From: Trinickia fusca
GTDB lineage: Bacteria > Pseudomonadota > Gammaproteobacteria > Burkholderiales > Burkholderiaceae
Length of the DNA stretch: 64,000 nt
Assembly (NCBI RefSeq): GCF_003628145.1
Contig: NZ_RBZV01000016.1
Coordinates: forward strand, 1,230 to 65,229
Reading direction: 5' to 3'
The notes beneath the pieces are model-generated. The model ran no database searches and had not been told where the DNA came from. It was given only the letters and a program-made list of their open reading frames with translations. The first letter of the stretch is position 1. Each line of letters opens with the position of its first letter. This document shows, piece by piece, positions 7,848-40,571 of the stretch. The translations under genes and the position numbers were made by a program.

Positions 7848-7864
7848 TCTGGTTACCTATCGGC

Positions 7865-9235: not shown

Positions 9236-9363
9236 GGTCTCCTGTCCCAGGCTGAGGTTTTCCTGGGGTTAGCGCTTCAGCTGTCGGCAAGAGTCAGCGC
9301 TTTATCACTTACGCCTGCCCCACGAAGCGCGCCTACCCCGATCCGATACAAAGCTGCCGTTTC

Positions 9364-10572: not shown

Positions 10573-10599
10573 GATCTTGCCTGCGTCGCTATTGAAAGT

Positions 10600-11064
10600 T
10601 TATTGACAGACCGTGCCACCGGTGGACGTCGTGAGGCTCTCGCGCGGCAGCGTGGTCGCGAGCGGGGGCATCGTGAGCGTGAGTGGGACGAACGGAATCA
10701 TTGTTTGCACGGTGACACCGGTGATACTGACCGTAACGAACGTGCAGGTGCTGCGCGCCGTCGATGGGTCCGAGTCACAGCCGGACGGCAAGTAGCTCAA
10801 ACTCACGTTCGAGGTGGCGAGCAGGGGCAGCAGTGCAGTCATCTTGGTCTTGATGAACGAGGCATCGGCATCGCAGACCGAGGCGGTGCGCGCGCCAAGG
10901 CGCGTGGCTTCGCTTGCGGTATTCCAGTAGAACAGCACGCGGCCGAACTCGCAGATGCCGATCAGCAAGGTACAGAACACTGCGGCGACGACGGCGAACT
11001 CCACCATGGCAGCACCGCGTTGCTTACGCCCACGCGATGGGAGAGGGTGTGCGTGCGCGTTCAT
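10600..11064 (-). CDS. tadF: TadE/TadF-like minor pseudopilin (second of two)
   Basis: The protein has 154 residues with a short cytoplasmic lead, then RGAAMVEFAVVAAVFCTLLIGICEFGRVLFYWNTASEATR, the hydrophobic TadE-like signature (the conserved E and the GICEFGR turn are visible). The remainder is extracytoplasmic with four scattered Cys residues that could form disulfides. Its ATG overlaps the upstream tadE stop as ATGA (11061-11064), indicating translational coupling. The family is processed by the prepilin peptidase TadV. TadE and TadF are assigned by order, not by a diagnostic residue. Confidence 0.85.
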   Translation of the reverse strand: MNAHAHPLPSRGRKQRGAAMVEFAVVAAVFCTLLIGICEFGRVLFYWNTASEATRLGARTASVCDADASFIKTKMTALLPLLATSNVSLSYLPSGCDSDPSTARSTCTFVTVSITGVTVQTMIPFVPLTLTMPPLATTLPRESLTTSTGGTVCQ

Positions 11065-11600
11065 GACACTTGCCTCATCACGGTGAAGATGTCGTCGAAG
11101 GTGATCGGCAGATTGAGGAACGGCTCGATCGGCGAATACGGGTAGCCTTTGATCTTCACTTCGACGAGGTTGATGCTGCCCGACTGGGCACCTCCAGACG
11201 CGGCGTTGTTCGTGTCGTAAGTCGGGACGTTGCTGAACGCGGCCGGGTCGGTGGAGTCCTGGCAATTCGTCGTGTTCACGGCGTCGCAGACCACCACCAT
11301 CGACGTCTTGAGACCGGTGACGAGCGCGCTGCCCGTGCAAGCCGTATTGCCGTACGTCGCGAGACACTGCGCTTGAGCGAGCGGGTAGGAAGGGTCGGAC
11401 GGAAGGTACGTCGACAGATACCGAGCCGCGTCGCGCGTCGACTTGGTGAGCGCCTCGTATTGAGCGATCGCATGGCCGAACTCGGCGACACCGGTCACGA
11501 GCACCAGGAGCGGGATCAACACGATGGCGAACTCCACGGCGGCTGCGCCGCGCATGCGTTTGAGCGTGCAAGGGCGTGTTTTCATGATGGCCTCGTTCAT
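11061..11600 (-). CDS. tadE: TadE-like minor pseudopilin
   Basis: The 179-residue protein begins MNEAIMKTRPC and carries RGAAAVEFAIVLIPLLVLVTGVAEFGHAI, the TadE hydrophobic signature, then an extracytoplasmic domain of about 120 residues. The ATG at 11600 overlaps the tadG stop (ATGA, 11597-11600), which decides the start over the longer in-frame extension upstream. Minor pseudopilins of this type are needed for Flp pilus biogenesis. The four Cys residues in the secreted part are arranged as two potential pairs. Confidence 0.87.
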   Translation of the reverse strand: MNEAIMKTRPCTLKRMRGAAAVEFAIVLIPLLVLVTGVAEFGHAIAQYEALTKSTRDAARYLSTYLPSDPSYPLAQAQCLATYGNTACTGSALVTGLKTSMVVVCDAVNTTNCQDSTDPAAFSNVPTYDTNNAASGGAQSGSINLVEVKIKGYPYSPIEPFLNLPITFDDIFTVMRQVS

Positions 11601-12847
11601 TGCACCAATACCGGAACCAGCGGACCGACCGCACTGCTGTCGCCGGGAACGCCATGCGTCGCGCACGGCACGCTCGCGTCGGTCGACTTTCCTTCGTACT
11701 CCAGATGGACTGGGCCGGCATTGCCGCCCTTGGCCATCGGATCGAGCATGAGCACGCAGTCCCACCAGAGGATGTTTGCCTTATGGCCGGCCAAGAGTTG
11801 CCCGCAATCGACTTCCGGCGCCAGCGCGAGCCGTCGATCGGCGCCGGCCGTGTAGTTCGTGCCCGAATCCGATCCGCTTGTGCTGACGCCTGAACCTGTG
11901 TCGCCCTGATACGCGGTGAACGTCGTCCGCTTGCTGACGAAATCGGAATACGCGTTGCTTTGCGCCGCCCAACTCGTAGGCGTATAGGCATATCCGGTGA
12001 AATCGGGGGTAGCGCCCGATTGCGAGTACGGATTGGCATAGATGCCGAAACGCGTGTTCCAGGCGCCTGAATCCGTGAGCTTGTTGCCCGGCGAGCCGAT
12101 GCTCGAACCCGTAGCCGGCAAGCTGCAGTAGTTGCCTGTCAGCTCGTTTCTGACCGATACCGCGCTGTTGCTGCCGTCAAGGGCGGACCAGCCGAAATTG
12201 CCGGCCCCGTAGCTCGGCGGCGATCCGGTCTTGGATGAGATCCACTGGCCTACCGAGTAGGACTGGCCGGCTATCGGTGGACTGACTTGCGTGCCGGCCT
12301 GGCAGACGAACACCGGGATGGCGCATGTCGTTTGCGCGGGGCCGATCGTGGCGACTGCGGCGGCCGATACCGCTGCATTGGCAACGTTGACGCCGGGTAT
12401 GAAATCGAGGAGCTGGATGAACCAGTTCTGGATGTTCGTAAGCGACGTCGTGCATTGCACGTATTGGATGGTCGAAGGCGAGGCGACCACGTTCTTCGGC
12501 TGAAACGGCGAGCTCAGCGAAGAGGTGAAGAGCACGTTGGTGTTGACCGCGAGCTGAACCGGATTGCTCTGGAAGAACGCATAGTTGAGGTGGCCGGCGG
12601 TGATGCCGGCCGCCTCCGACACGGACAGATTGATCGTGGCGCCGGTCAGATCGCGAGCGGCTGCAAGCGCGCACGAATCCGCGCTGTTTTGCAGTTCGCT
12701 CTTCACGACATACATCTTGCCGAGATCGAGCGCGAGCCCGACGAATGCGATCAGCGTCGCGAGCGCGAGCGCGACGAGGACCGCCACGGCACCGCCCTCG
12801 GTTCGGCGAGGACTGCCGCGCATGCTTCTTGGGGATTCGCGACGCAT
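11597..12847 (-). CDS. tadG: TadG-like pilus assembly protein (Flp locus, vWA-less)
   Basis: The 416-residue protein starts with a basic tail, then GGAVAVLVALALATLIAFVGLALDLGKMYVVKSELQNSADSCALAAARDL, the TadG/TadE-type membrane signature with the conserved LQNSADSCALAAA motif. The rest is a secreted Ser/Gly/Tyr-rich domain without a visible von Willebrand MIDAS motif, so it is the short TadG form common in beta-proteobacteria. GGGAG precedes the ATG by 6 bases. It is translationally coupled to tadE. Confidence 0.86.
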   Translation of the reverse strand: MRRESPRSMRGSPRRTEGGAVAVLVALALATLIAFVGLALDLGKMYVVKSELQNSADSCALAAARDLTGATINLSVSEAAGITAGHLNYAFFQSNPVQLAVNTNVLFTSSLSSPFQPKNVVASPSTIQYVQCTTSLTNIQNWFIQLLDFIPGVNVANAAVSAAAVATIGPAQTTCAIPVFVCQAGTQVSPPIAGQSYSVGQWISSKTGSPPSYGAGNFGWSALDGSNSAVSVRNELTGNYCSLPATGSSIGSPGNKLTDSGAWNTRFGIYANPYSQSGATPDFTGYAYTPTSWAAQSNAYSDFVSKRTTFTAYQGDTGSGVSTSGSDSGTNYTAGADRRLALAPEVDCGQLLAGHKANILWWDCVLMLDPMAKGGNAGPVHLEYEGKSTDASVPCATHGVPGDSSAVGPLVPVLVQ

Positions 12848-20338: not shown

Positions 20339-21682
20339 ATGCATCTGTTACAACGGGGGCCGCGCGGCGCACAGAGCCGCGCGCACGAGCATGAATGGTG
20401 GGTAGCCGTGTCCGAGGCCGGGGCAAGCCTCTTGTCGAGCAGACCTGCGCGACGAGAGGCCATATTGCCAGCGGCTTCTCCCACGCGCCGCCCGCACTGG
20501 CTCGACAGCGAGCGCTTGCGGCTTTATCCGGCCGTGGTGCTGATTTGTTATCTCGTATGGGTCTTGATCTATCTGTACAAGGCCGTGTGGCATCCACACG
20601 AATACATCAGCCCGCTCGCTATCGACTTTCTGCCGTTTTGGAGCTCGTCGTACCTTGCGTTGCATGGACACGCCGCGGACGCATACAACCTCGGTGTGTT
20701 GGGCAATGTCGAGCAAAATGCACTCGCGCATACGGTCGGCCTTCTGCCTTGGCTCTACCCGCCAACGTTCTTGCTGTTCGTCTATCCGTTGGCGCTCTTG
20801 CCGTGGAAGATCGCCGCAGCGACGTTTCTCGGCGGCACCTATGCGCTCTTCGTTAGAGCAATTCGCGCGATCGTTCCTCGCCGCGAGGCGCTGCTCATTG
20901 CCATGGCTTTTCCCGGTGCCGCGCTGGTTGCGGTATCCGGACAAAACGGCCTCCTGACCGCCTCGCTTGCCGCGCTGGGGCTCGTGTTGCTTCGTCGCCG
21001 TCCTGTGGCAGCGGGAATTTGCTTCGGCATCCTATGCATGAAACCGCATCTGGCGGTGCTCTTTCCCCTCGCGTTGCTGTGCTCCCGTTCGTGGCGCGCA
21101 CTGGCATCGCTCGCGTTGACCGCGATGTCGATGCTGGCCATCTCGGTGCTAGTGTTCGGTGGGGGAACCCTTGCTGCATTTCTCCATAACGCCAGCATGG
21201 CGGCCGGCTACGTCGAATCTGGCCGCGCTGCCTTGGCGCGGGTCCCGACGATGTTTGCGCTCGCGAAGCTGGCGCACGTGCCATCGGCGCTTGCCTATGC
21301 GGCGCAGGGCCTGTCGGCCATCTTGGCCGCAGCGGCAGTGTGCTATGCCTGGGGGCGCGAAACCTCTCATGCGTTGCGCGCGGCGACGCTGGTTTGCGCG
21401 AGCCTCATGGTTTGTCCGTACCTGTTCGATTACGACCTCACCTGGTACGGCGTGCTCATCGCCTGGTACGGAAAATACGCCCTTGAAAGCGGATGGAAGC
21501 GCGGCGAGCGCGAGTGGCTCATCTTGCTTTGGCTGACACCACTGGCAGGCATTCTCATCGTCAGTCACGTGAAGGTCCAGTTCATGCCGCTCATTTCGGC
21601 AATCACGCTTTGGATGCTGGTGCGGCGCATCGCGCAGCAAAGACGCGAGCCCGTTGTCCTCGGACGGCATTCAGGCGAATGA
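20339..21682 (+). CDS. GT87/DUF2029 family polyprenol-dependent glycosyltransferase
   Basis: This integral membrane GT-C type enzyme is likely to transfer a sugar from a polyprenyl-phosphate carrier on the outer face of the inner membrane. The 447-residue sequence has about ten hydrophobic segments from residue 62 onward. The family signature region with an acidic loop after the first segment is visible (PLAIDFLPFWSSSYLALHG), and FAxPGxxxVxxGQNG-like and KPHLAVLFPLAL motifs follow. The first 55 residues are polar, so a downstream start such as the Met at about residue 23 is possible. The linked GtrB-like synthase could provide its donor. Confidence 0.8.
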   Translation: MHLLQRGPRGAQSRAHEHEWWVAVSEAGASLLSSRPARREAILPAASPTRRPHWLDSERLRLYPAVVLICYLVWVLIYLYKAVWHPHEYISPLAIDFLPFWSSSYLALHGHAADAYNLGVLGNVEQNALAHTVGLLPWLYPPTFLLFVYPLALLPWKIAAATFLGGTYALFVRAIRAIVPRREALLIAMAFPGAALVAVSGQNGLLTASLAALGLVLLRRRPVAAGICFGILCMKPHLAVLFPLALLCSRSWRALASLALTAMSMLAISVLVFGGGTLAAFLHNASMAAGYVESGRAALARVPTMFALAKLAHVPSALAYAAQGLSAILAAAAVCYAWGRETSHALRAATLVCASLMVCPYLFDYDLTWYGVLIAWYGKYALESGWKRGEREWLILLWLTPLAGILIVSHVKVQFMPLISAITLWMLVRRIAQQRREPVVLGRHSGE

Positions 21683-25381: not shown

Positions 25382-25727
25382 TTACGTTCCCCCTGAGCGA
25401 CGGCAGGCATACCTGCCGGACTCGTGCCTTCATTTTTTCGTTTTCATGGATAGGCGTCATGGCCTCTATGTGGCAGTGCTTATCTAGGCAGACGATAAGT
25501 GCAGTCGCATCGATTTGCACGTGCGGCGGATCACATAGCGCGTCGTTTCATCGTCGATACGTTTTTTAGCGCTGTGGGTTGAGGGCGATTTGCGCCGTTT
25601 TGCGCTCGCTATGTCGTTGGCGCTTGCCGCCACAGTGGTTCGTAACTTGCTTTTTCGCGTTGGCGAGTCACCGAACCCGGATGGGGGGGACCTGTACGGG
25701 TCGATCGGTGCGAGTTGGAGAAAAAGA
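25382..25727. other. Intergenic region with hairpin, upstream of an orphan TadE gene
   Basis: The region separates divergent genes. It holds a perfect inverted repeat with arms at 25401-25407 and 25412-25418 (CGGCAGG/CCTGCCG), followed on the plus strand by a T-rich stretch at 25432-25445. The reading frame of the downstream TadE gene extends into it, but without a ribosome-binding site. Confidence 0.4.
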
Positions 25728-26219
25728 ATGAACACGGTAATCAGGCGGTCAACGGCGATTCTACGGTCGCGGTATTCAGTCAACCGGAATTTGCCTCGAT
25801 TCCGGTGGCGTGTCGGGCGCCTTTGCCAGTTGGGTCGGGCCAGCCTCGAATTTACGGTTCTCTTGCCTCTCCTGTGCCTGCTTCTGCTGGGTATCACCGA
25901 GTTCAGCTTCGGCATGTACAACAAGGCGATGGTGGTCGAAGCGAGCCGTGAGGCGGTGCTCGAAGGCGTCGCGGTGCCAAGGTTGACGCCGTTGCAGCTG
26001 ACGAGCATTGCGCGTAATTACGCTTCGGATAAGTTGATTACGTTCGGCGATCCGCCCTCGATCGTCGTCGACGTGAACCAGTCGTCGGGCACGTCTTCCG
26101 GCAATCCACTCAAGGTGACCGTGAGCTACGCGTACAACGGGCTCGCCATCGGACGGGTAATGAACATGCTGGGTGAAACGGTGGAGCTCTCCGGCGCGAC
26201 GACTATGAACTATCAGTAG
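25728..26219 (+). CDS. Orphan TadE-like minor pseudopilin
   Basis: This is a 163-residue protein: basic lead, then GRASLEFTVLLPLLCLLLLGITEFSFGMYNKAMVVEASREAV, the TadE signature with the conserved Glu residues, then about 90 secreted residues. GGAG lies 7 bases before the ATG at 25728, which is preferred to the longer frame from 25590. It lies 6.5 kb from the Tad operon on the other strand, so it is a second TadE-class gene possibly feeding the same machine. Confidence 0.82.
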   Translation: MNTVIRRSTAILRSRYSVNRNLPRFRWRVGRLCQLGRASLEFTVLLPLLCLLLLGITEFSFGMYNKAMVVEASREAVLEGVAVPRLTPLQLTSIARNYASDKLITFGDPPSIVVDVNQSSGTSSGNPLKVTVSYAYNGLAIGRVMNMLGETVELSGATTMNYQ

Positions 26220-26704: not shown

Positions 26705-28162
26705 ATGACTATCGCTTTCAATCCGTCGCATGCTGAGCGGACCGTCCTTTTTGTTTCGCTCAAGCCAGACACGGAAAGCATCGATGCGCTGATCGCGGCC
26801 GGATGGCACGTCGTCCATGCGAAACCATCACAGCAGGTGGAGCGCTTGCTCGAGCGAGGCGCGATTCGCGTCGGCGTGGTCGATCTGCCGAAAGCGTGCG
26901 ACGCTCAGCAACTGGCCGAAATCGAATCCTGCATCTCGCGCACTGACGCGACCTGGATCGCGCAAGTGTGTCCAGGCCAGGCCGACGAGGAGCCGATACG
27001 CCGTTTCATCCTCGATTACTGCTTCGATTTCGTGACCTTGCCGTGCATGGATGAGCGGCTCGCGATGGTGCTCGGCCATGCCCGGGGGCTCTCGGTGTTG
27101 CGCGAGAAGGTCGTTCAAGAGCCGCCCGCGGCGCATTGCAGCACGATGATCGGCGAGTGCGAAGCGATGCAGCAACTCTATCGCGGCGTCGACAAATGCG
27201 CGCGCACCAATGCGCCCGTATTCATCGCCGGAGAATCGGGCACGGGCAAAGAGCTTACCGCTTGTGCGATTCATGAACGCTCGACCCGCTCGGGCCGCCC
27301 CTTCGTCGCGATCAACTGCGCGGCCATTCCGCCGTCGCTCCTGCAGTCCGAGCTCTTCGGTCATGAGCGTGGCGCGTTCACGGGTGCGTTGCAAAAGAAG
27401 ATCGGCCGTATCGAGGCTGCCGCCGGAGGTACGCTCTTTCTCGACGAAATCGGCGACATGCCTCATGAATGCCAGGCCGTGCTGCTGCGCTTCTTGCAGG
27501 AAGGCACGATCGAGCGGCTCGGCGGCAATGGCCCGATCAAGGTCGACGCGCGCATCGTATCCGCTACGCACGTCGATTTGATGAGTGCGATCGAAGCAGG
27601 GCGTTTCCGCTCGGACCTTTACCATCGTCTTTGCGTGTTGCGTCTCGACGAGCCGCCGCTGCGCGCGCGCGGCAATGACATCAAGCTGCTAGCGCAACAC
27701 GCGCTCGCGCTGCACAAACGCGACGGTGCTCGCAAGCTACGCGGCTTTTCGAGCGATGCGATTGCGTCGATGTTCAACTACGGCTGGCCCGGCAACGTTC
27801 GAGAGTTGATCAACTGTGTGCGCCGCGCGGTCGTGATGGCGGAAGGGCGCTTCATCACGTCGGCCGATCTCGGGTTGCCCGACGCCGGCCATCGCGTCGG
27901 CCGCACGTTGGCAGAGATCCGATGCGACGCCGAGCGTGCGGCCGTGCGAGAGGCGCTGGCGCGTCATGCGTACAGTCTCTCGAGTGCCGCACAGGAGCTG
28001 GGTATCTCGCGCGCCACGCTTTACCGCCTGCTCAATTCGATCGGCTTGCGGACGGAGGCGCCGATGATGCGGCATCTGCGCATGATGGACGCGGAGAACA
28101 CGCCGCCAGAGGTGCCTTGCGCAGCGCCGCGTCCCGAAGCCGAGCACCGCGTCTCGCCCTGA
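26705..28162 (+). CDS. Sigma54-dependent transcriptional activator, VpsR-like
   Basis: The 485-residue bacterial enhancer-binding protein has a receiver-like N-terminus (1-125) with a lone Asp in VGVVDLP and no typical acidic pocket. It is followed by an AAA+ domain (about 145-375) with Walker A GESGTGKE near 175, the sigma54-contact loop GAFTGA near 222, Walker B GGTLFLDEIGDM, and GNVRELINCVRR; a Fis-type helix-turn-helix lies near 415-445 (SLSSAAQELGISRATLYRLL). The plan matches VpsR of Vibrio cholerae, a regulator of exopolysaccharide genes that responds to c-di-GMP. Its position between the pilus and the polysaccharide locus makes either a candidate target. Confidence 0.88.
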   Translation: MTIAFNPSHAERTVLFVSLKPDTESIDALIAAGWHVVHAKPSQQVERLLERGAIRVGVVDLPKACDAQQLAEIESCISRTDATWIAQVCPGQADEEPIRRFILDYCFDFVTLPCMDERLAMVLGHARGLSVLREKVVQEPPAAHCSTMIGECEAMQQLYRGVDKCARTNAPVFIAGESGTGKELTACAIHERSTRSGRPFVAINCAAIPPSLLQSELFGHERGAFTGALQKKIGRIEAAAGGTLFLDEIGDMPHECQAVLLRFLQEGTIERLGGNGPIKVDARIVSATHVDLMSAIEAGRFRSDLYHRLCVLRLDEPPLRARGNDIKLLAQHALALHKRDGARKLRGFSSDAIASMFNYGWPGNVRELINCVRRAVVMAEGRFITSADLGLPDAGHRVGRTLAEIRCDAERAAVREALARHAYSLSSAAQELGISRATLYRLLNSIGLRTEAPMMRHLRMMDAENTPPEVPCAAPRPEAEHRVSP

Positions 28163-31092: not shown

Positions 31093-31410
31093 ATGCGTTA
31101 TCGACACACTCAGTCGCTCCAACGCCAATTGATTTCCTCGTTAATTGTCGGTTCAGTGGTGGTTGCATTGGTCGGCGCATTCAGCTTCTACTCGGATCAT
31201 GCGCAGGGAGCGGGAGGAGTGGCCAATGCACAAGCCGCCGATCCGACCCACAGCTACAAGGTGCCGGCGTTGCCCAATGGCTCCGCGCACGCCGTCGTGC
31301 AAGCGGGCATGTCGAAGAAGGGCTGGGAGGAAGGATACAAGGAATCGGGGCGCCCGAAATTCCCGACGAATTCGGTCAAACGCGAAGGCGGCAACGTCGA
31401 GCGCGACTAA
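31093..31410 (+). CDS. Small secreted or membrane-anchored protein heading the polysaccharide locus
   Basis: The 105-residue protein has a basic N-terminus, one hydrophobic segment (about residues 13-34, LISSLIVGSVVVALVGAFSF) and a polar periplasmic part with VPALPNGSAHAVVQAGMSKKGWEEGYKES. AGGGAGAAGG precedes the ATG. It is 12 bases upstream of the deacetylase gene, so probably cotranscribed. I do not recognise the family. Confidence 0.68.
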   Translation: MRYRHTQSLQRQLISSLIVGSVVVALVGAFSFYSDHAQGAGGVANAQAADPTHSYKVPALPNGSAHAVVQAGMSKKGWEEGYKESGRPKFPTNSVKREGGNVERD

Positions 31411-31422
31411 GGGGACGCCATC

Positions 31423-33063
31423 ATGAAGAAAATCATTCTGATCATTGCACTGATGGCCGGATTTTGGCAGGGGTTGCCAAGCACGGCTCAAGCGCAAACG
31501 ACGACGCTGCATACGATGATTTTGTACGACAATCCCGCCAATGATCCGTATTCAAAGCTCGGGCTTATGTACGCGATCATGTTGCGCAATTTGCTCGGAC
31601 ATTTCAATACGACGGTCGATCTGGTGCCCGTGCAAAACTATACAACTGGACAAATCGGCGCCCATGATGCGACGTTCTACATCGGCGACTATTACAACAA
31701 TCCGTTGCCTGCGGCGTTCATGAGCGACGTGATGTCGGCTACCAAGACGGTCGTATGGTTTAAATACAACCTCTGGGAAATTGCTTGGAATACGGCGTAC
31801 ACGTTCAATCAGACGTTCGGCTTCAGCTTCCTCGGTCTAGCAGGCCTCAACGCGACGCCGTCGTCGAGCAATCCGACCCCAGGCTTCTACGACACGGTCA
31901 CTTACAAGAATCTGCCGATGGTCAAGTACTACGCGTACAACGCCACGACCGGCGTGGTGGAGGCCGACCCCGATATCGGTCTCACGCAGGTGCTCGATTC
32001 GACGAAGGCCCAGTCGCTAGTGACGATCACGAACAGCACGACCAAAGCGACGGCACCGTACATCATGCGTTCCGGCAACTTCTGGTACTTCGCGGACAAT
32101 CCGTTCTCGTACATCGGGACGACCGACCGCTACCTCGTGATCTGCGACGTGCTGCACGACATCCTCAATACGGGCGCACCGGTCAACCATCGCGCGCTGG
32201 TCCGTCTGGAAGATCTCGACGCGTACACCACGACGAGCTCGATGAGGCAGCTGACGAACTATCTGTATAGCAAGCACATCCCGTTCACGATGGCGACGAT
32301 TCCGCTCTACACGGACCCGAACGGCTATTACAACGGCGGCGTGCCGGAGACGATCCACCTGGCGCAAGCGACCGGGCTCAAGTCGGCGCTGAACTATGCG
32401 TTGCTGCACGGCGGCTCGATCGTCATGCACGGTTATACGCACCAGTACGATTCGACGCCGAACCTGCAAAACGCGGTCAGCGGCAACGACTATGAGTTCT
32501 GGTACGCAGTGCAGGACCGCCCCGTGGACGAGGATTCGGAGCAATGGGCCGAGGGACGCATGCAGGACGGTCTGGCCGAGTTCACGAGTAACGGCTATAA
32601 GGTTGCCGGCTGGGCGTCGCCACAGTATCAGATGTCGCCGCTCGCGTCACAGGCTGCGGCCGCGGAATTCCCGACGTCGTTCCAGCGGGCCGTCTACTAC
32701 ACGGCGACGAACCCGCAAATCGGTACAGGTGCAGCCAATCAGGATTTCTCGGCCGGACAGTTCTTTCCATACATCATCAACAGTGATTATTACGGAGAAC
32801 GAATCATTCCGGAAAACATGGGGAGCATCCAGTACAACATCTGCAATATCGATCCGTTCTCGTGCATCGCCTATACGTGGCAGCAGATGCTGACCAACGC
32901 GCAGTATGCGCTGGTCGTTCGTGACGGGTTCGCGTCGTTCTTCTTTCACCCGTACTGGCTCGAGCCCAATCTCAAATTGCCTGCGCTGCAGGATTTCGAA
33001 AGTCTCGTTTCCGGGATTACGAATCTGGGCTTTACATGGGTCGACGGTACGACGGCGAAGTGA
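31423..33063 (+). CDS. Secreted DUF2334 polysaccharide deacetylase
   Basis: The protein has 546 residues with a signal peptide ending at TAQA (about residue 25). A long N-terminal domain (30-255) is followed by a deacetylase barrel with the family motifs RLEDLDAYTT (about 263-272) and MHGYTHQYD (about 332-340), which supply the metal-binding Asp and His residues. It probably removes N-acetyl groups from the nascent polymer in the periplasm or at the surface, as PelA and IcaB-type enzymes do. A 187-base gap precedes wecB. Confidence 0.85.
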   Translation: MKKIILIIALMAGFWQGLPSTAQAQTTTLHTMILYDNPANDPYSKLGLMYAIMLRNLLGHFNTTVDLVPVQNYTTGQIGAHDATFYIGDYYNNPLPAAFMSDVMSATKTVVWFKYNLWEIAWNTAYTFNQTFGFSFLGLAGLNATPSSSNPTPGFYDTVTYKNLPMVKYYAYNATTGVVEADPDIGLTQVLDSTKAQSLVTITNSTTKATAPYIMRSGNFWYFADNPFSYIGTTDRYLVICDVLHDILNTGAPVNHRALVRLEDLDAYTTTSSMRQLTNYLYSKHIPFTMATIPLYTDPNGYYNGGVPETIHLAQATGLKSALNYALLHGGSIVMHGYTHQYDSTPNLQNAVSGNDYEFWYAVQDRPVDEDSEQWAEGRMQDGLAEFTSNGYKVAGWASPQYQMSPLASQAAAAEFPTSFQRAVYYTATNPQIGTGAANQDFSAGQFFPYIINSDYYGERIIPENMGSIQYNICNIDPFSCIAYTWQQMLTNAQYALVVRDGFASFFFHPYWLEPNLKLPALQDFESLVSGITNLGFTWVDGTTAK

Positions 33064-33250
33064 CGTGACATCCTGGTTGTTTCAATGTTGCGACTCGCCC
33101 CCGCAAAGGGTGGGTCGCACACCTTACCCGGGCGATGCCGCTGCCGGCAGTGAGGCTAAGGCCACACTCACTAGGTGCGGCGATCTTCTACAGTGACGTG
33201 ACAGTCGAGAGAACGTTAACGAAGCAAATCGACGAGGTGCGGGGGAACCC

Positions 33251-34468
33251 ATGAAAAAGGTATTGACGGTGTTCGGTACGCGGCCCGAAGCGATCAAGAT
33301 GGCGCCGCTAGTCCATGTGCTGGCGGGACAGCGGAACATCGACGCAAAAGTGTGCGTGACGGCGCAGCATCGCGAAATGCTCGATCAGGTCTTGGAGCTT
33401 TTCGGCATCACACCCGATTACGATCTGAATTTGATGCGCGAGGGACAAACGCTGGGCGATCTGACCTCCGGCATCCTGCAGTCGATCGGCACCATCTACG
33501 ATGAATGGCAGCCCGACGTCGTGCTCGTGCACGGCGATACGACGACGACGCTGGCGGCGAGCCTCGCAGCCTTTTATCGCTACATTCCGCTTGGTCATGT
33601 CGAGGCCGGTTTGCGTACCGGCAATGTATGGTCACCCTGGCCCGAAGAGTTGAATCGCCGCGTGACCGATGCCGTGTCGTCGTGGCTGTTCGCACCGACC
33701 GAACAGGCCAAGCACAACTTGTTCAGCGAAGGTGCGCCGGCCTCGCAAGTGATCTTGACGGGCAATACCGTCATCGACGCCTTGCAGCAGGTCAAGTGCC
33801 GGCTCGACGGCGATCAGGTATTGAGCGAGCGCATTGCCGCGCGTTATCCGTTTCTCGATCCGGCGCGGCGCATGATTCTCGTGACGGGCCATCGCCGCGA
33901 GAGCTTCGGGGAGCCGTTCCGCAACTTCTGCGAAGCGTTGCGGCAGCTGGCGACGACGCACGATGACATTCAGCTCGTTTATCCCGTGCATCTGAATCCG
34001 AACGTGCGCGAACCCGTGCATGCGATTCTCGGCGAAGAGGCGAACGTGCATTTGATCGAGCCGCAGGACTATCTGCCGTTCGTGTTCCTGATGTCGCGTG
34101 CGTATCTGATCATCACGGACTCGGGCGGCATTCAGGAAGAAGGGCCCGCTCTGGGCAAGCCCGTACTCGTGACGCGCGAGACGACGGAGCGCCCCGAAGC
34201 CGTACGCGCCGGGACGGCGCGGCTCGTCGGCACGCATACCGAGCGCATCGTGTCGGAGGTCAACTGCCTGCTGAACGATCGCGCGCAATACGACGCGATG
34301 GCGCGCGCGAACAATCCCTATGGTGACGGTCACGCCAGCGAACGCATTGTCGATGCGCTACTGAACGTGCCGGTGACGTTCGCGTCGGTGAACCACCATG
34401 CCATCGCTCAGCCGGCATTGCTGCTCAACGCCGTGGCCACCGGGCTGCAGGCGTTACGCTCGGCGTAG
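33251..34468 (+). CDS. wecB: UDP-N-acetylglucosamine 2-epimerase
   Basis: This enzyme makes UDP-ManNAc from UDP-GlcNAc. The 405-residue protein has the family start [19 protein letters not shown], substrate motifs [28 protein letters not shown] and [10 protein letters not shown], and the usual length plus a C-terminal extension of about 20 residues. In E. coli WecB supplies the sugar donor for the NfrB polysaccharide, so its location just before an nfrB-like gene is informative. It may equally serve another surface glycan. Confidence 0.95.
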
Positions 34469-34939
34469 CGAGTCGCTTTTCAACCAACCATCATATCTTC
34501 AATAACGCACTCCGTGCGCCGGCGCCCGCCGGCTGACGGGGTGCGCGCGTTTGTGCGCTTGTGCACCGATTGACGATGCGGGTAGTGCTTATCCTCCGAT
34601 ATTTTTAATTTGTGCGAATGCGCACATTGTGTTTTTTTTGTTGGGGTTTTGCCTTAGTAAGTATAAAAATCAATGTCTAATTTTATGGGAATTTACTGTT
34701 GGGTGGATAACAAATTTAATAATTAAATTAAAAGCAGTGTGCGACGACGTACGGTGATATTGCTTTATTCATTACACGATATGCGAACCTGGCGGCGCAT
34801 TGCGGCGTGACGAAACCGGGGGGGACGTCACGCTCCTATAGAAGGCCCGCTCGGGAGCGAATCCAGGGGATTCGTGCGTTCGTGCGGGGCGGCTGCCGGG
34901 CCGCCCCATTCGGTGCTCATATCTGTGTGGTAGATAAAA
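34469..34939. promoter_or_regulatory. AT-rich intergenic region before the glycosyltransferase gene
   Basis: The first part carries a strong inverted repeat at 34507-34544 (outer arms GCACTCCGT/ACGGGGTGC, inner arms GCCGGC/GCCGGC) that may end the wecB transcript. From about 34570 to 34760 the sequence is very AT-rich with runs of T and A, unlike the genome average. This is likely the promoter region of the downstream genes. A short open frame at 34551-34757 is not convincing. Confidence 0.45.
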
Positions 34940-36886
34940 ATGCACACGACCTCGATTTGGCTTGACTATATCTATGTCCTGAATGGTGTCGCGCTATTCA
35001 CGGCGGTCATCATATTCGTCAGCACAATAGACGACCTATTCCTTGATGGTTTTTACTGGCTAACCGAGCTCAGACGGATATTGCGCGGGGAAAAGACGCA
35101 AGCGATCGACGCCCAGGAATTGAGAAGCGAGGATGAGCGTTATTTGGCGATCATGGTGCCCGCGTGGAAGGAGTACGACGTAATCGCCAAGATGATCGAG
35201 AACACGCTCGAAACGCTCGAGTACGAGCGATACGTGATTTTCGCCGGGGCCTACCACAACGATGCGGAAACCACGGCCGAGGTCGAACGCATGGTGAGGC
35301 GGCACCCTGGGCGCGTCGTGCGCGCGACGGTACTCAACGATGGGCCGACTTGCAAAGCCGACTGTCTGAACTGGATCGTTGCAGCGATCCTGCGTTACGA
35401 ACAGTCGCATCACATCGAGTTTGCCGGTGTCGTCATGCACGACTGCGAAGACGTGATCCACCCGATCGAGCTCAAGTACTTCAACCATGCCGTGCTCGAC
35501 AGCGACCTCGTGCAGTTGCCGGTACTGTCCTTGCCGCGCAAGTGGAACGAGTTCGTCGCGGGCACCTATATGGACGACTTCAGCGAGACACATCAAAAGG
35601 ACATCCCGACGCGCCAACTGCTGACCGGCATCGTGCCGGGCGCTGGTGTGGCGTCGTGCTACAGCCGCCGCGCGATCAAGGCGACCATGGCCGAGCGCGA
35701 GGGCAGACCGTTCAACACCGATTCGCTGACCGAGGATTACGACTTCAGCTTCCGTCTACGCGAACTCGGCATGAAGGAAACCTTCGCGCGTTTTCCGCTT
35801 GCCGAGGCAGTGCGCGAGCGTGCCCGAGGCGGCTTCGCACGCGCCCGTAATCTGCTCGCGACGAAGGAGTACTTCCCGAGCACCTTGCGTAGCGCCTATC
35901 GTCAGCGTGCGCGATGGATTCTCGGCATCGCGTTTCAAGGATGGCAGCAGCTCGGATGGAGGGGCAGCCTGCGCGATCGCTATATGTTCTTTCGTGACCG
36001 TAAGGGCATGGTGACGTCGATCTTCTCGATCGTGGCTTATGCGGTGCTCATCAACTATCTGTCGGTGGCGGCCGTGCAGGCGGCGGGCCTCGCGCCGTCG
36101 CATGTCGGTCCGGGCTCGCTCATGAGCAGCTGGCTCTCGCCGCTGCTGTCGATCAACTGCGCCATGATGGTCATTCGCCTGGCCGAGCGCTACTACTTCG
36201 TTGCCAAGCTCAACGGAGCAATGCAAGGCTTGCTTTCCTTGCCTAGACTCCTTGTCAACAATCTGATTAATTTCCTTGCAGTCTGTCGAGCGTGGCGCAT
36301 CTTTGGTGAGTACCTCATCACCGGCAAGCCGATCGCGTGGGACAAGACGAGCCATACCTATCTGTCCGACGAGGAACTCGGCAAGACGCGTCGCAAACTC
36401 GGCGAAATTCTCGTGGAGTGGGGCGTGCTGACACAAGAGAAACTCGAAGCGTGTCTGGAGCGTCAGGCGGCTTGCGGCAAGCGGCTTGGCGAGCTGCTGC
36501 TCGAAGAGGCCGAGATCAGCGCCGAATCGCTGGCCGATGCGCTGGCCGAGCAGGCGGGGTTGCCGCGCGTGAGCCTGGCGAACGTGGCGGTCGGCCACTT
36601 CGCGGCGTCGCTGGCGCACGAGCTTCGGCACAGCTACCGGATCGTGCCGTTTTCTACTTCCGATGACGGCACGCTCAACGTTGCAGTGGGCAGCCCGCTG
36701 TCCGACGACGAGCGGCACATCGTCAAGCGCGGGGCTGGCGGCAACGTGGCGTACTTCATTGCGAGCGATGCGGAGATCGCGGCCGAGCTGGCTCGGCATG
36801 CGCACTTCGTCGAGCTCGAGCGCGGCGAGGCGCGGGCCAAGACGTTCGCGGTCCGCAACGCGCCGCCGCAAGGCCCGGGGGAATAA
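34940..36886 (+). CDS. nfrB: NfrB-like glycosyltransferase with C-terminal MshEN c-di-GMP-binding type domain
   Basis: This is an inner-membrane processive-type GT2 enzyme. Of its 648 residues, an N-terminal membrane segment (about 10-30) precedes a GT-A domain with the acidic sites near 85-180 (HDCEDVIHP near 168), TEDYDFSFRL near 264 and QRARW near 323; further membrane segments lie around 345-440. From about 473 a MshEN/GSPII_E_N domain follows, with two copies of the LGEIL..G.L....L...L..Q pattern (KLGEILVEWGVLTQEKL and RLGELLLEEAEIS). MshEN domains bind c-di-GMP, and E. coli NfrB is c-di-GMP-dependent. The product is probably an N-acetylhexosamine polymer. Confidence 0.9.
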   Translation: MHTTSIWLDYIYVLNGVALFTAVIIFVSTIDDLFLDGFYWLTELRRILRGEKTQAIDAQELRSEDERYLAIMVPAWKEYDVIAKMIENTLETLEYERYVIFAGAYHNDAETTAEVERMVRRHPGRVVRATVLNDGPTCKADCLNWIVAAILRYEQSHHIEFAGVVMHDCEDVIHPIELKYFNHAVLDSDLVQLPVLSLPRKWNEFVAGTYMDDFSETHQKDIPTRQLLTGIVPGAGVASCYSRRAIKATMAEREGRPFNTDSLTEDYDFSFRLRELGMKETFARFPLAEAVRERARGGFARARNLLATKEYFPSTLRSAYRQRARWILGIAFQGWQQLGWRGSLRDRYMFFRDRKGMVTSIFSIVAYAVLINYLSVAAVQAAGLAPSHVGPGSLMSSWLSPLLSINCAMMVIRLAERYYFVAKLNGAMQGLLSLPRLLVNNLINFLAVCRAWRIFGEYLITGKPIAWDKTSHTYLSDEELGKTRRKLGEILVEWGVLTQEKLEACLERQAACGKRLGELLLEEAEISAESLADALAEQAGLPRVSLANVAVGHFAASLAHELRHSYRIVPFSTSDDGTLNVAVGSPLSDDERHIVKRGAGGNVAYFIASDAEIAAELARHAHFVELERGEARAKTFAVRNAPPQGPGE

Positions 36887-36888
36887 CG

Positions 36889-38568
36889 ATGAAACGCATA
36901 AGATCAACGCGCGTGCGGCGCTTCGGCGCGCTCGCGCGGATGGGGGGGCTCGTCGCGGTCGCCACGTTGGCGTTGCATGCTCAGGGGGCCGAGACGCTTT
37001 CGCCGCGCGCCTACCGGCTGGCCGATTCGGCATACAAGGCGATCGCGGCCGGCGATCTGCCGCGCGCCGAAGATTTCGCTTCGCGCGCTTTCAAGGTGCA
37101 GCCCGGCAGTCAGCAATTGGGGCTGCTGCTGCTCGATGTACTGTCGCGCGAAGGCAAGATCGCCGAGGCTGATCAGCTCGCCGAGACGTTGTTGAGCCGC
37201 TATCCCGACAACGCGCAGGTGTTGGCGCAGCATGGCTTTCTACAACAGCGCCAGCAACGGTACGACGTCGCGGCACGCGATTTTTCGGCAGCCCTGACCA
37301 ACGGCAAGGACACCTGGTCGGACGAGCAGCAACGCAACCTGCGCCTCGCGTGGGCCGACAGCGCGCTCGAAGCGCATGAGCCCGACGAGGCGAGCAAGGC
37401 GCTGGCACCGCTGCAAGACGACCCGGACCCGCGTGTGCAACTGCGCATTGCGCAACTGCGCTTGCGCAACGGCGACCGGGCCGGCGCCCGGCGTGCGGCG
37501 CAACTTGCGCAGAGCCATGCGACGAGCGAAGAGGACAAAAAGAGCGCGGCTGAGCTGATCGAATTTGCAAAGGAGCCCGAGCCGATCGACGACACGGCCA
37601 GAAAGACGCTGCAAACGGCTTACGACCTGCTGCGTCAGAACAAGGATAGTGAGGCGTTGGCCTCATTCCAGCAGGGTTTTGCCGGCGGCGCGGGCACGGC
37701 CGGGAACTTTGCCGATGCGGGCTATGCAGCCAAGCGTCTGTCGCAAAACGACGAGGCGGTCGCGCTGTTCAAGCGCAGCCTCGATGCCGACGACAGCGAG
37801 CACACGTTCGACGAGCAGCGGCGCTTCGGTTATCGGCGCGAGGTACAGCAGCTCGAGCGCACATGGGGATTCGTGCTGAGCCTGCCTTATCAGGTGTCCG
37901 CATTCTCGCCCACAGGCACCGTCAACGTGCTGCAACCGGGTATCGAAGCGTACTGGCAGCCGCCGAAGATCGGCTATCGGAACGGCCGCATCCTGCAGTT
38001 CTTCGTGCGCGGCTACGGCACGGCTTACGATGGCTCGGGCAACGTGACGGGCGCGCCGACGGTGCAAGGTTCCGTCGGTGCGCGCTACAAGCCGATCATC
38101 GACCAGAACCTCGTGGTGTCGGCTGAACGCCTGGTGCGTATCGGGCGTTTCTCGCAGAACGATTGGCTTGCGCGCCTCGGGTACTCGTCGGAGGCGGGCA
38201 GCGACCTGCGGGTGACGGAGCCGAGTTGGCGCAGTTGGCAGGTCTATGGCGAAGCGGACTACTTTTTTCATCAAGGCCGTTACGTGCTGTATTCTGAGCT
38301 GCGCTACGGTCACACCTGGGCGCTACCGCAGATCAGTGATCACTTGACCGTCTACCCCCACGTGGCGTTCGTGTTCGATCACGACAGTCGCGAGGTCGAC
38401 GAGACGGCGATGGGCATCGGGCCCGGCGTGCAGTTTCGCTTCTGGTTTCGCGAGAGCCACTACAGTGCGCCGGCCAGTTGGGCCGACGTGACAGTGCAAT
38501 ATCGCGCCCCGCTCACGCATGCCTCGCGTGCGAAAGGGCTCGTCGTGCAGGCGACGCTATGGTTCTAG
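36889..38568 (+). CDS. nfrA: NfrA-like TPR/outer-membrane beta-barrel protein
   Basis: The 559-residue protein has a signal peptide (cleavage near LHAQGAE). Residues 40-300 are TPR-like helical repeats (AIAAGDLPRAEDFASRAFKV, AQHGFLQQRQQRYDVAARDF). A C-terminal domain of about 230 residues is rich in alternating beta strands, ending in the aromatic residue of LVVQATLWF as outer-membrane barrels do. This matches NfrA, the outer-membrane exporter and phage N4 receptor partner. It is half the length of E. coli NfrA (about 990). It starts two bases after the nfrB stop. Confidence 0.83.
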   Translation: MKRIRSTRVRRFGALARMGGLVAVATLALHAQGAETLSPRAYRLADSAYKAIAAGDLPRAEDFASRAFKVQPGSQQLGLLLLDVLSREGKIAEADQLAETLLSRYPDNAQVLAQHGFLQQRQQRYDVAARDFSAALTNGKDTWSDEQQRNLRLAWADSALEAHEPDEASKALAPLQDDPDPRVQLRIAQLRLRNGDRAGARRAAQLAQSHATSEEDKKSAAELIEFAKEPEPIDDTARKTLQTAYDLLRQNKDSEALASFQQGFAGGAGTAGNFADAGYAAKRLSQNDEAVALFKRSLDADDSEHTFDEQRRFGYRREVQQLERTWGFVLSLPYQVSAFSPTGTVNVLQPGIEAYWQPPKIGYRNGRILQFFVRGYGTAYDGSGNVTGAPTVQGSVGARYKPIIDQNLVVSAERLVRIGRFSQNDWLARLGYSSEAGSDLRVTEPSWRSWQVYGEADYFFHQGRYVLYSELRYGHTWALPQISDHLTVYPHVAFVFDHDSREVDETAMGIGPGVQFRFWFRESHYSAPASWADVTVQYRAPLTHASRAKGLVVQATLWF

Positions 38569-39494
38569 AATTTAGTTCGGTGTACTTCGTATTATGGCGA
38601 CGCGTGAGGCGAGCCAGAGTCACGCTTGCCGCCATGTGCAGCGCGGCGTTGTTCGCGAGCGGCTGTAGCAATCTCGGTGAGACGCATGCCGACGGCATCG
38701 TCTGGCAGACCGATGCGACCACCACGCGTCCCACCGGACACTGGCAGTGGCTCGGCGTGCGCGATCTGCTGATTCAGTGGGTCGTCGTCGACGATACGGC
38801 GTTCGTGCCGGTCGATACGCAAGGCGCTTCAGGATTGCCAGCGCTGCAAGGCGTGCACATGGCATCGCAGTTGCCCGATTGGGATCGCATCAGTCGCGAA
38901 CCGTGGGCGTCGAATGTGATTCTGGGGCTCGCCGGCTATTCGGACGAGAAGCGGGCGAGAGACAACATCGCCAAACTGGCCGATATGTCGGCGTCCGTGG
39001 CGCATCTCGCGACACCGCTGCATGTGAAGGGCTACTACTTCCCGGTCGAGATCGATCCGAGCTGGACCGACGCGTCGAAGCTTGCGGCGGTGTTGAACAA
39101 GTTGCCGCGGCCGCTATGGGTCACGGTGTACGACCGCAAGAACATTGGCGGTGGGACGCTGGCCGATTGGCTCGCCACATGGCTGCCGGCAGACGTCGGG
39201 GTGTTCTTCCAGGATGGATGCGGGGTCTATGCGCGTGTGCCGTCGGTGGCGCGCGTGTATCTCGACGCGTTGTCGTCGCGGTTGGGACGGCGTCGCGTGC
39301 GGGTGATCGCGGAGGCATTCCGGCCCAGCGAGCACGGTGGTTTTCGTGCGGCGACGGCGGAGGAGCTGAAGGAACAGCTGGCGACTTACAACGGGTATTC
39401 GGTTTACCTGTTCGACGGCCCGCACTACGTGTCAGATCCACTCGTGCGGGCCCTCGCGCCCCAAGCCGCCGAGCGGCAAGGGGCGAGCCGGTAA
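38559..39494 (+). CDS. Putative lipoprotein with a DUF4434-like TIM-barrel fold
   Basis: This is a 311-residue protein whose ATG overlaps the end of nfrA by 10 bases. A basic lead and hydrophobic segment end in a lipobox-like FASGC (Cys near 34). The body contains WDRISREPW, GYYFPVEIDPSW and AFRPSEHGGFRAA, which resemble DUF4434 glycoside-hydrolase-like proteins found in polysaccharide loci. E. coli nfrAB is followed by ybcH, another accessory gene of unknown function; whether this is its counterpart is open. Confidence 0.7.
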   Translation: MVLEFSSVYFVLWRRVRRARVTLAAMCSAALFASGCSNLGETHADGIVWQTDATTTRPTGHWQWLGVRDLLIQWVVVDDTAFVPVDTQGASGLPALQGVHMASQLPDWDRISREPWASNVILGLAGYSDEKRARDNIAKLADMSASVAHLATPLHVKGYYFPVEIDPSWTDASKLAAVLNKLPRPLWVTVYDRKNIGGGTLADWLATWLPADVGVFFQDGCGVYARVPSVARVYLDALSSRLGRRRVRVIAEAFRPSEHGGFRAATAEELKEQLATYNGYSVYLFDGPHYVSDPLVRALAPQAAERQGASR

Positions 39495-39504
39495 GGCAAG
39501 AGGC

Positions 39505-40476
39505 TTACTGCGGTGCCTTCAGCGGCAGAATCGTTTGGCGCAGCAGCTTGAAGTACGAGCTGGTCGTGTAGGGGACCATTTCTTCGGCGTAATACCACCA
39601 GAAGAAGCCGCCGATGAAGCGCGGATCGTTCATGGTGTTGACCATCGGGTAGTACGTCTTGATCAGGTTGTCCTGCACGGTCGCGGGAGCGCCTGTGTCG
39701 GACGTGCCGATTTCGCCGAAGCCGACCTTCGCGTTCGGGAAGATCTGCTCAAGTGCCGAGAAATCGTTGTTCCACGACGGATTCAGACCCGGGCAGTCCT
39801 GGTACGGGTAGTAGCTGAACAGCGCGTAGTCGGCCTGCTGGCGCACGGTCGACGACAGGAACTGCGTCGGCCAGGTTTTCCAGTAGTCCTGCGGCAATTC
39901 CCAGCAGTTGTTGCCCTTGCTGTCGTCGTTGTAGTACAGCGTGACGGCGGTCTTGCCGCCGTTCGATTTGACGATGGTGTTCGCTGCCGCGACCATCTGT
40001 CCGATTTGTGTCTCCTCACCATTGATCAGCGAGTTGGGGCCGTCCATGTCGGGGCGCAGCCATTCGCCGTTGATCTCGTTCGCGATTTCCCAGACGTCGA
40101 CCGTATTCTTCAGCGTCGACACGAGTTCTTGCGTACGTGCCGTGTAGGTCGCGAGGGTGGTCGGGAAGTAGTACGAATCATAGATTTCGCCCATGATGTA
40201 CGCGTACTGGTGCAGCTTCACGAGCGCGGGGTAATACTCGGCCGCGGTCGTACCCGGATCGAACACGACGCGAACGGTCGGACGATACGGCAGGTTTTGA
40301 AGGGAAGCGATGATAGCGTTGAGATTGCTCAGATCATCGAGCGTCACGCCATAAGTAGGATTTTTTAGAGGTTCGACTTGCGCTTGCGCCGGTTGGCTCA
40401 GCGACATCGATATTGCACATGTGGCGAGCGTAGCGGCAGCTACGCGCGTCCATGATTTCGTAAGTTGATTCGCCAC
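39505..40476 (-). CDS. Secreted glycoside hydrolase, clan A-like TIM barrel
   Basis: The 323-residue protein is read from a GTG at 40476 with AGGAAG just upstream. This start gives a clean signal peptide ending at QPAQA, unlike the ATG at 40554, which would add 26 residues. The motif VDVWEIANEINGEW supplies the Asn-Glu acid/base pair of clan GH-A and FGEIGTSDTG a candidate nucleophile Glu. It converges on the lipoprotein gene, 10 bases apart. It may trim or release the polymer of this locus. The exact GH family is not assigned. Confidence 0.75.
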   Translation of the reverse strand: MANQLTKSWTRVAAATLATCAISMSLSQPAQAQVEPLKNPTYGVTLDDLSNLNAIIASLQNLPYRPTVRVVFDPGTTAAEYYPALVKLHQYAYIMGEIYDSYYFPTTLATYTARTQELVSTLKNTVDVWEIANEINGEWLRPDMDGPNSLINGEETQIGQMVAAANTIVKSNGGKTAVTLYYNDDSKGNNCWELPQDYWKTWPTQFLSSTVRQQADYALFSYYPYQDCPGLNPSWNNDFSALEQIFPNAKVGFGEIGTSDTGAPATVQDNLIKTYYPMVNTMNDPRFIGGFFWWYYAEEMVPYTTSSYFKLLRQTILPLKAPQ

Positions 40477-40520
40477 GTTCTTCCTGATGATTGGTGTTGG
40501 AGGAAGGGCGATGTTAACCG

Positions 40521-40571
40521 AAAATAAAACATAATTATCTGACGATAACGGCATGATGCGTTATCGCCAGA
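40521..40571 (-). terminator. Intrinsic terminator of the hydroxyproline deaminase gene
   Basis: On the minus strand a hairpin (arms 40571-40559 and 40550-40538, TCTGGCGATAACG/CGTTATCGTCAGA) is followed by a T-rich tail (TAATTATGTTTTATTTT, complement of 40521-40537). A second perfect 9-bp hairpin (GGCGAAACA/TGTTTCGCC) sits at 40574-40596, between this one and the stop codon. Confidence 0.7.

Follow-up and report, generated by a model that had tools for sequence, protein, structure and literature searches.

The Nfr system of Escherichia coli comprises a synthase of glycosyltransferase family 2 (GT2) with an MshEN domain, NfrB, and an exporter made of tetratricopeptide repeats (TPR) and a barrel, NfrA, together with YbcH and the epimerase WecB (PMC8669469, PMC8669472). 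Its nfrBA-ybcH genes adjoin neither a deacetylase gene nor a gene for a hydrolase of glycoside hydrolase (GH) clan GH-A, and wecB lies elsewhere. The nfr clusters of Achromobacter and Simplicispira, as presented in parts of the same papers (PMC8669472, PMC8669469), are of a BcsB/acetyltransferase type, and both the Nfr family and its type with BcsB and O-acetylation are already published. Here we examine a locus at 31093-40554 of a 64,000-nucleotide stretch of DNA from the soil bacterium Trinickia fusca (the window; NZ_RBZV01000016.1, positions 1,230 to 65,229; contig C8 of a 6.1-Mb assembly in 41 contigs). It shares with E. coli the synthase, the exporter, YbcH, WecB and key residues, but has wecB, a gene for a DUF2334 protein and a gene for a GH-A-like hydrolase beside the nfr genes. 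The DUF2334 and hydrolase pair is the true addition to the Nfr core, and the locus probably represents a deacetylase branch of the Nfr family that makes a polymer of N-acetylmannosamine (ManNAc) under the control of cyclic di-GMP (c-di-GMP), probably in partly de-N-acetylated form.

Seven reading frames, all present, fill the locus, and the 9.4-kb gene set that an earlier note on this DNA had described was confirmed; the Pfam scan covered six of the seven proteins, all but a small one of 105 residues. The glycosyltransferase at 34940-36886 (+) is, judged by sequence, an NfrB-like synthase with a predicted c-di-GMP site. It matches Pfam GT2 (3.4e-30) and, at its C terminus, MshEN (24.6 bits, cut-off 23.1), as well as the NCBIfam c-di-GMP motif (53.7 bits, cut-off 38). 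Over 623 residues it shares 41% identity with E. coli NfrB, and its closest named relatives, in Trinickia species, are 74-77% identical to it. The NCBIfam NfrB equivalog NF008411 aligns over 612 residues and scores 577 bits, which falls short of its cut-off of 1170, and an unnamed glycosyltransferase model, NF012033, is passed at 982.6 (cut-off 537). Alignment to E. coli NfrB places D168 (with E170, equivalent to E. coli E171), D266, Q322, R325 and W326, and the DxD, TED and QxxRW motifs of a GT2 synthase are present; the D, D, Q, R and W residues are kept in 48/48 surveyed sequences with a DUF2334 neighbor. Substitutions of D169, D267 and W330 in E. coli NfrB failed to restore N4 plating, according to the passages of PMC8669469 that deal with these residues. 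The MshEN residues L487, G488, L502, L506, L516 and G517 are likewise kept in the window NfrB, those named for the E. coli protein in parts of PMC8669469 and PMC8669472 being L490, G491, L505, L509, L518 and G519; each of the two MshEN glycines is retained in 46 of the 48 sequences with a DUF2334 neighbor.

The remaining core genes are of the same kind. The frame at 33251-34468 (+) encodes WecB, the UDP-N-acetylglucosamine 2-epimerase that supplies UDP-ManNAc, with matches to Epimerase_2 (1.2e-121) and NCBIfam wecB (518.5 bits, cut-off 210); only two wecB matches (E 1e-60 or better) exist in the genome, each beside an Nfr locus. The exporter at 36889-38568 (+) carries TPR and NfrA_C (2.1e-45, 154.8 bits, cut-off 25). 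It is shorter than its E. coli counterpart (559 versus 990 residues), and a second member of the NfrA family is encoded on contig C6. The lipoprotein that follows lies in a frame at 38478-39494 (+) and most likely starts at 38559, where it overlaps nfrA by 10 nucleotides. Its DUF4434 match is sub-threshold (0.0017), and its match to NCBIfam NF007404/PRK09936 (1.4e-6) is below the equivalog cut-off. When E. coli is left out of the training set, the family profile nevertheless matches E. coli YbcH at 8.9e-19, and a 24-sequence alignment that includes YbcH has 25 invariant columns. By these alignments the lipoprotein is the YbcH counterpart, and it belongs to the core of the Nfr set instead of being an addition, as had been proposed; 34940-39494 is thus nfrB-nfrA-ybcH in the E. 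coli order, with 2 bp between nfrB and nfrA. The Nfr-type synthase, exporter and WecB, and the MshEN-type C terminus, all proposed from the letters alone, were borne out by these Pfam and NCBIfam matches, by the identity to E. coli NfrB and by the retained c-di-GMP site residues.

The secreted DUF2334 protein (31423-33063, +; signal read by eye) matches Pfam PF10096 at 9.7e-43 over residues 257-512. Its structure model joins an alpha/beta domain to a deacetylase domain of the NodB/carbohydrate esterase family 4 (CE4) type, a plan also seen in PelA, and has the NodB fold of the CE4/NodB superfamily. Residues E263, D264, H336, H340 and H509 are invariant in 30/30 sequences, D264, H336 and H340 being the Asp-His-His metal triad as assigned by motif, without superposition. 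Foldseek matches include ThuA-like proteins (4jqs, 4pxy) and PhzE (3r75), which we take as matches of the N-terminal domain, query ranges being absent from the listing; the mixed alpha/beta domain of PelA is likened to the same two kinds of protein in a passage of PMC12022489. On this model the protein is a predicted polysaccharide N-deacetylase.

The hydrolase frame (39505-40554, -) matched no Pfam family. The frame opens at 40554, and a GTG at 40476 would give a secreted protein of 323 residues (39505-40476; signal read by eye), close to the 322-327 residues of most Burkholderia and Trinickia relatives. Its model is a TIM barrel with Asn-Glu after strand 4 and Glu at strand 7 (strands from the model's DSSP), that is, a GH-A clan fold and a predicted glycoside hydrolase. 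Fold prediction thus supports both enzyme readings of the earlier note. In Ralstonia and its g25 kin, the DUF2334 and hydrolase genes are closely spaced at 10 of 11 tabulated loci, with either a 4-bp overlap or a gap of 2-3 bp; at the eleventh, and at the untabulated L141 and L173, the hydrolase frame is open a long way upstream. All 15 g25 genomes listed with a match carry a further hydrolase copy that is not at the locus.

Neighborhoods of NfrB-type genes fall into two alternative branches, marked by DUF2334 or by BcsB. Profiles made from the proteins of the window and of a second Nfr locus in this genome were used to scan 73 named loci, 40 fetched stretches and these two loci themselves, and 112 glycosyltransferase frames were kept (longer than 450 residues, score above 300; shorter or contig-cut frames were dropped). 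The sample is biased, being drawn with the window NfrB, and some genomes entered it twice, via two collections. Within 7.5 kb, 56 frames had DUF2334 only, 43 BcsB only, 1 both and 12 neither. With full flanks only, the counts were 47, 33, 0 and 8, and after thinning at 97% identity 48, 43, 1 and 12. The only locus with both (L096, 2299-11472) belongs to a metagenome-assembled genome (MAG) of Ramlibacter and has a short flank. On a quick tree of 107 rows (104 plus three E. coli proteins, with very long branches for PgaC and BcsA), the split between DUF2334 and BcsB needs 2 changes; DUF2334 rows set against all others need 5, and the contrast between the two branches alone was used. Genes for alginate-type O-acetylation were found in the survey at BcsB-type loci only, near 15/33 of those with full flanks versus 0/48 rows with DUF2334. 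Sources of the DUF2334 loci include Trinickia, Paraburkholderia, Pararobbsia, Burkholderia, Ralstonia, Myxococcales, Holophagaceae/Acidobacteria and one Ectothiorhodospiraceae MAG.

The T. fusca genome has both branches. Its second Nfr locus, on contig C6 (L003, 4620-17688), runs wecB, a BcsB relative, an MshEN-bearing nfrB, nfrA, a relative of AlgF (just under the Pfam cut-off), two relatives of AlgX and an MBOAT protein. It resembles the Achromobacter and Simplicispira clusters in those parts of the two papers cited above that describe them, and its NfrB is 43% identical to that of the window. All of these BcsB-type clusters share wecB, nfrB and nfrA with the window, but have BcsB, often with AlgF, AlgX and MBOAT, in place of DUF2334 and the hydrolase, and a separate glycosyltransferase branch. 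A profile scan found no BcsB relative at the window locus. The earlier note's idea of a larger version of the Nfr system needs correction in that the locus belongs to one of two alternative branches and is not just an enlargement of a single type. The NfrB frames of g11 (loci L123, L124, L136) are mostly about 570-590 residues long, and their alignment with the window NfrB stops at about residues 540-565, which suggests that MshEN is missing or cut in some BcsB-type loci.

In a neutral sample of 397 Pseudomonadota genomes, NfrA_C occurred in 18, at 19 loci (15 fetched stretches, the window, L003, L127 and L132), of which 2 had DUF2334, 7 BcsB, 10 neither and 0 both within the stretch examined. 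One of the 2 is the window; the other is L153, which belongs to a different family of this class and combines six genes, DUF2334, wecB, nfrB, nfrA, ybcH and hydrolase. Of 299 Burkholderiaceae genomes, 41 have window-type NfrB (identity of at least 60%), 42 the two-domain DUF2334 protein and 41 the hydrolase, and the three sets coincide but for two genomes. The 42nd DUF2334 genome (G164, 88% complete) shows NfrB as no more than a fragment where a contig ends, and G037, though in the NfrB/DUF2334 set, lacks the hydrolase. None of the remaining 257 genomes has DUF2334 or the hydrolase (profiles, E 1e-15), and three genomes of the window's genus without window-type NfrB (G068, G088, G114) also lack both. 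The association of DUF2334 with the hydrolase has a Fisher p of 8e-50, kinship ignored.

These data suggest a pathway in which WecB would supply UDP-ManNAc and NfrB, switched on by c-di-GMP at MshEN, would polymerize ManNAc and pass the chain through the inner membrane. The periplasmic DUF2334 enzyme would then remove part of the N-acetyl groups, the TPR domain of NfrA would take up the modified chain and its barrel would export it, and the GH-A hydrolase, perhaps with YbcH, would cut or trim it. By analogy, the logic would be that of Pga, with PgaB, and of Pel, with PelA, the PelA-like part and the hydrolase here being separate polypeptides. The Pga system (PgaABCD), which serves for poly-N-acetylglucosamine (PNAG), has a GT2 synthase, a deacetylase with a GH part, an outer-membrane exporter and c-di-GMP control, as the window appears to have, although the c-di-GMP site of the window is MshEN instead. 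The DUF2334 and hydrolase profiles gave no match to E. coli PgaB. A PNAG synthase (PgaC/IcaA) was rejected at 23.4 bits against a cut-off of 422.3, and BLASTP at 1e-3 matched the window synthase to neither PgaC nor BcsA of E. coli. A cellulose synthase was likewise rejected, with no PilZ match and no BcsB relative at the window locus, so that in the comparison with PgaC and BcsA the enzyme did not fall into another family, the outcome that would have spoken against an Nfr assignment. The Pel exporter, PelB, is a TPR-barrel protein like the window NfrA. PelA, according to its abstract, deacetylates and hydrolyses Pel before export via PelB, and by analogy deacetylation may be needed for export here. 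In the parts of PMC12022489 that describe it, the Pel system resembles the one proposed for the window in its alpha/beta plus deacetylase plan, its hydrolase and its deacetylated polymer. It differs in that its synthase is of the PelF type and not GT2, the window hydrolase is a separate protein and there is no sequence match to PelA. A Pel-type synthase was rejected, the window enzyme being GT2 and no PelF (GT4-type), PelD or PelG Pfam family being found in the six scanned proteins.

The near-exclusion of DUF2334 and BcsB at NfrB loci can also be read structurally. In Myxococcales, DUF2334 lies directly upstream of the glycosyltransferase, the place that BcsB holds in the other branch, and the DUF2334 protein might be a periplasmic scaffold that replaces BcsB beside NfrB, its deacetylase fold being incidental. 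We consider this quite improbable: the five residues invariant in all 30 sequences are unlikely for a scaffold, the hydrolase co-occurs, and the 10/19 neutral loci with neither partner, like E. coli, have no such protein in the stretch examined. The two enzymes could instead release or recycle the polymer, or degrade that of a competitor, rather than modify it before export. The hydrolase gene is convergent in the window and placed differently between genera, DUF2334 copies exist away from nfr loci and g25 genomes have their second hydrolase copy, all of which would suit such a role. It is nonetheless an unlikely one, since near-perfect co-inheritance with window-type NfrB and the tight DUF2334-hydrolase spacing in Ralstonia both point to one pathway. 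An ordinary Nfr system among merely syntenic housekeeping genes is the most doubtful reading by far and is already contradicted by the genome survey. The flanks (a VpsR-type regulator, DoxX-like, MFS and downstream DHDPS-like genes) are conserved within Trinickia as well, but were not found in the other loci searched, bar one weak regulator relative in L080, whereas DUF2334, hydrolase and nfr genes occur together in Burkholderia, Ralstonia, Acidobacteria and another family of the same class. The grouping is not chance, as the genes recur together in other genera.

Several observations weigh against the proposed deacetylase branch. In the DUF2334 protein, Glu263 stands in all 30 sequences where CE4 enzymes carry the catalytic Asp (a motif reading); the PelA match is one of fold only, at rank 50 among the best 50 rows with an rmsd of 6.0, and in sequence searches at E 1 no PelA chain was matched by the DUF2334 profile. 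PF10096 occurs in 39/397 of the Pseudomonadota genomes, mostly away from NfrA, and together with NfrA_C in only two (G000, the genome of the window, and G674, that of L153); therefore the link concerns the two-domain protein and not DUF2334 generally. Several genomes have DUF2334 copies elsewhere than at nfr loci, with no relative of nfrB, BcsB or the hydrolase in the stretch examined, and the enzyme may for that reason act on something else too. At L144 (G097, same genus), the locus lacks DUF2334 and the small gene, and a DUF2334 copy is about 200 kb away. No wecB was found within 7.5 kb at 13/13 full-flank named Burkholderia loci; the Burkholderia fragments L045 and L097 of strain Bp8963 do have it nearby, and wecB was found in the genome of 22/22 DUF2334-type genomes tested. 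Within the same distance, YbcH was absent from 15/40 and the hydrolase from 7/40 of the full-flank DUF2334 rows, and the survey profiles found no YbcH at the Ralstonia and myxobacterial DUF2334 loci. Relatives of N4 gp65 occurred in 118/50,697 phage records, and the name of none of these points to Burkholderia, Ralstonia or Trinickia, in a collection whose phages of those genera were not counted; the suggestion in the earlier note that the polymer is a phage receptor thus gained no support.

The extra-locus genes for two-domain DUF2334 proteins lie in L166-L172 and L175-L179 (genomes G025, G106, G063, G140, G043, G097, G059, G122, G251, G067 and G192). Such a gene is the only copy in G097 and an additional one in the other genomes, and weak NfrA-profile matches (30-78 bits) occur in L167, L176 and L177. 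L144 occupies the same chromosomal place as the window locus and offers a natural comparison strain.

Neither a DUF2334/hydrolase type of Nfr system nor a link of Nfr to a bacterial deacetylase was found among the matches listed from the open-access literature, a body of text outside which subscription papers and preprints mostly fall. In the excerpts returned, NfrB stands with the word deacetylase in the context of phage tailspikes, and among the matches listed DUF2334 occurs in one paper, on marine metagenome statistics. If the deacetylase branch is real, the known biofilm matrices under c-di-GMP control would gain one more system with a deacetylated polymer. The genera concerned (Burkholderia, Ralstonia, Trinickia, Paraburkholderia) are ones in which the composition of the matrix is of importance both for plants and in the clinic. 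YbcH and the DUF2334 family, which has been little studied, would each gain a role that can be tested, and Nfr loci could be sorted by a simple rule: DUF2334 or BcsB, hardly ever both. More tentatively, the two branches may be split chemically, the BcsB branch often O-acetylating its product and the DUF2334 branch N-deacetylating and cutting it. The T. fusca cell, with both branches and a WecB for each, might then turn one precursor into two ManNAc-type coats that differ in charge. The deacetylated coat would be a cationic polymannosamine and would join PNAG and Pel as a deacetylated biofilm polymer under c-di-GMP control. Self-deacetylation might blunt deacetylase-reliant phages, because N4-related phages carry glycan deacetylase tailspikes according to part of PMC8669472; one gp65-like match is annotated as a tail carbohydrate esterase.

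The seven genes do not form one operon: they are transcribed in at least two directions, the last gene, that of the hydrolase, being convergent, and the 471-bp gap between wecB and nfrB holds a hairpin and T run that resemble a terminator (34611-34626, +; a consensus match only). Terminator-like sites in the region numbered 14, versus 9.0 in shuffles (standard deviation 3.1). The small protein (31093-31410, +) matched no NCBIfam family; it has an N-terminal anchor or signal, read by eye, and a conserved C-terminal motif, GMS...W...YKE.GRP.F. In the 22 loci that have one, a small reading frame of fewer than 140 residues shares the strand of the DUF2334 gene and ends 6-12 bp before it. Elsewhere in the window, a gene for a GT87 glycosyltransferase (20339-21682, +; 5.3e-35) is unlinked to the nfr locus, and Tad/Flp-type pilus genes (T2SSF, T2SSE, TadE) occupy about 6870-12039 (-) and 25590-26219 (+; read by eye only). 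About 3 kb upstream of the locus, 26705-28162 (+) encodes a sigma-54 regulator with a VpsR domain (PF20161, 1e-26), whose counterpart holds the same place in other Trinickia loci and was not found elsewhere in the loci searched. This regulator could control the nfr locus or the nearby Tad-type pilus genes.

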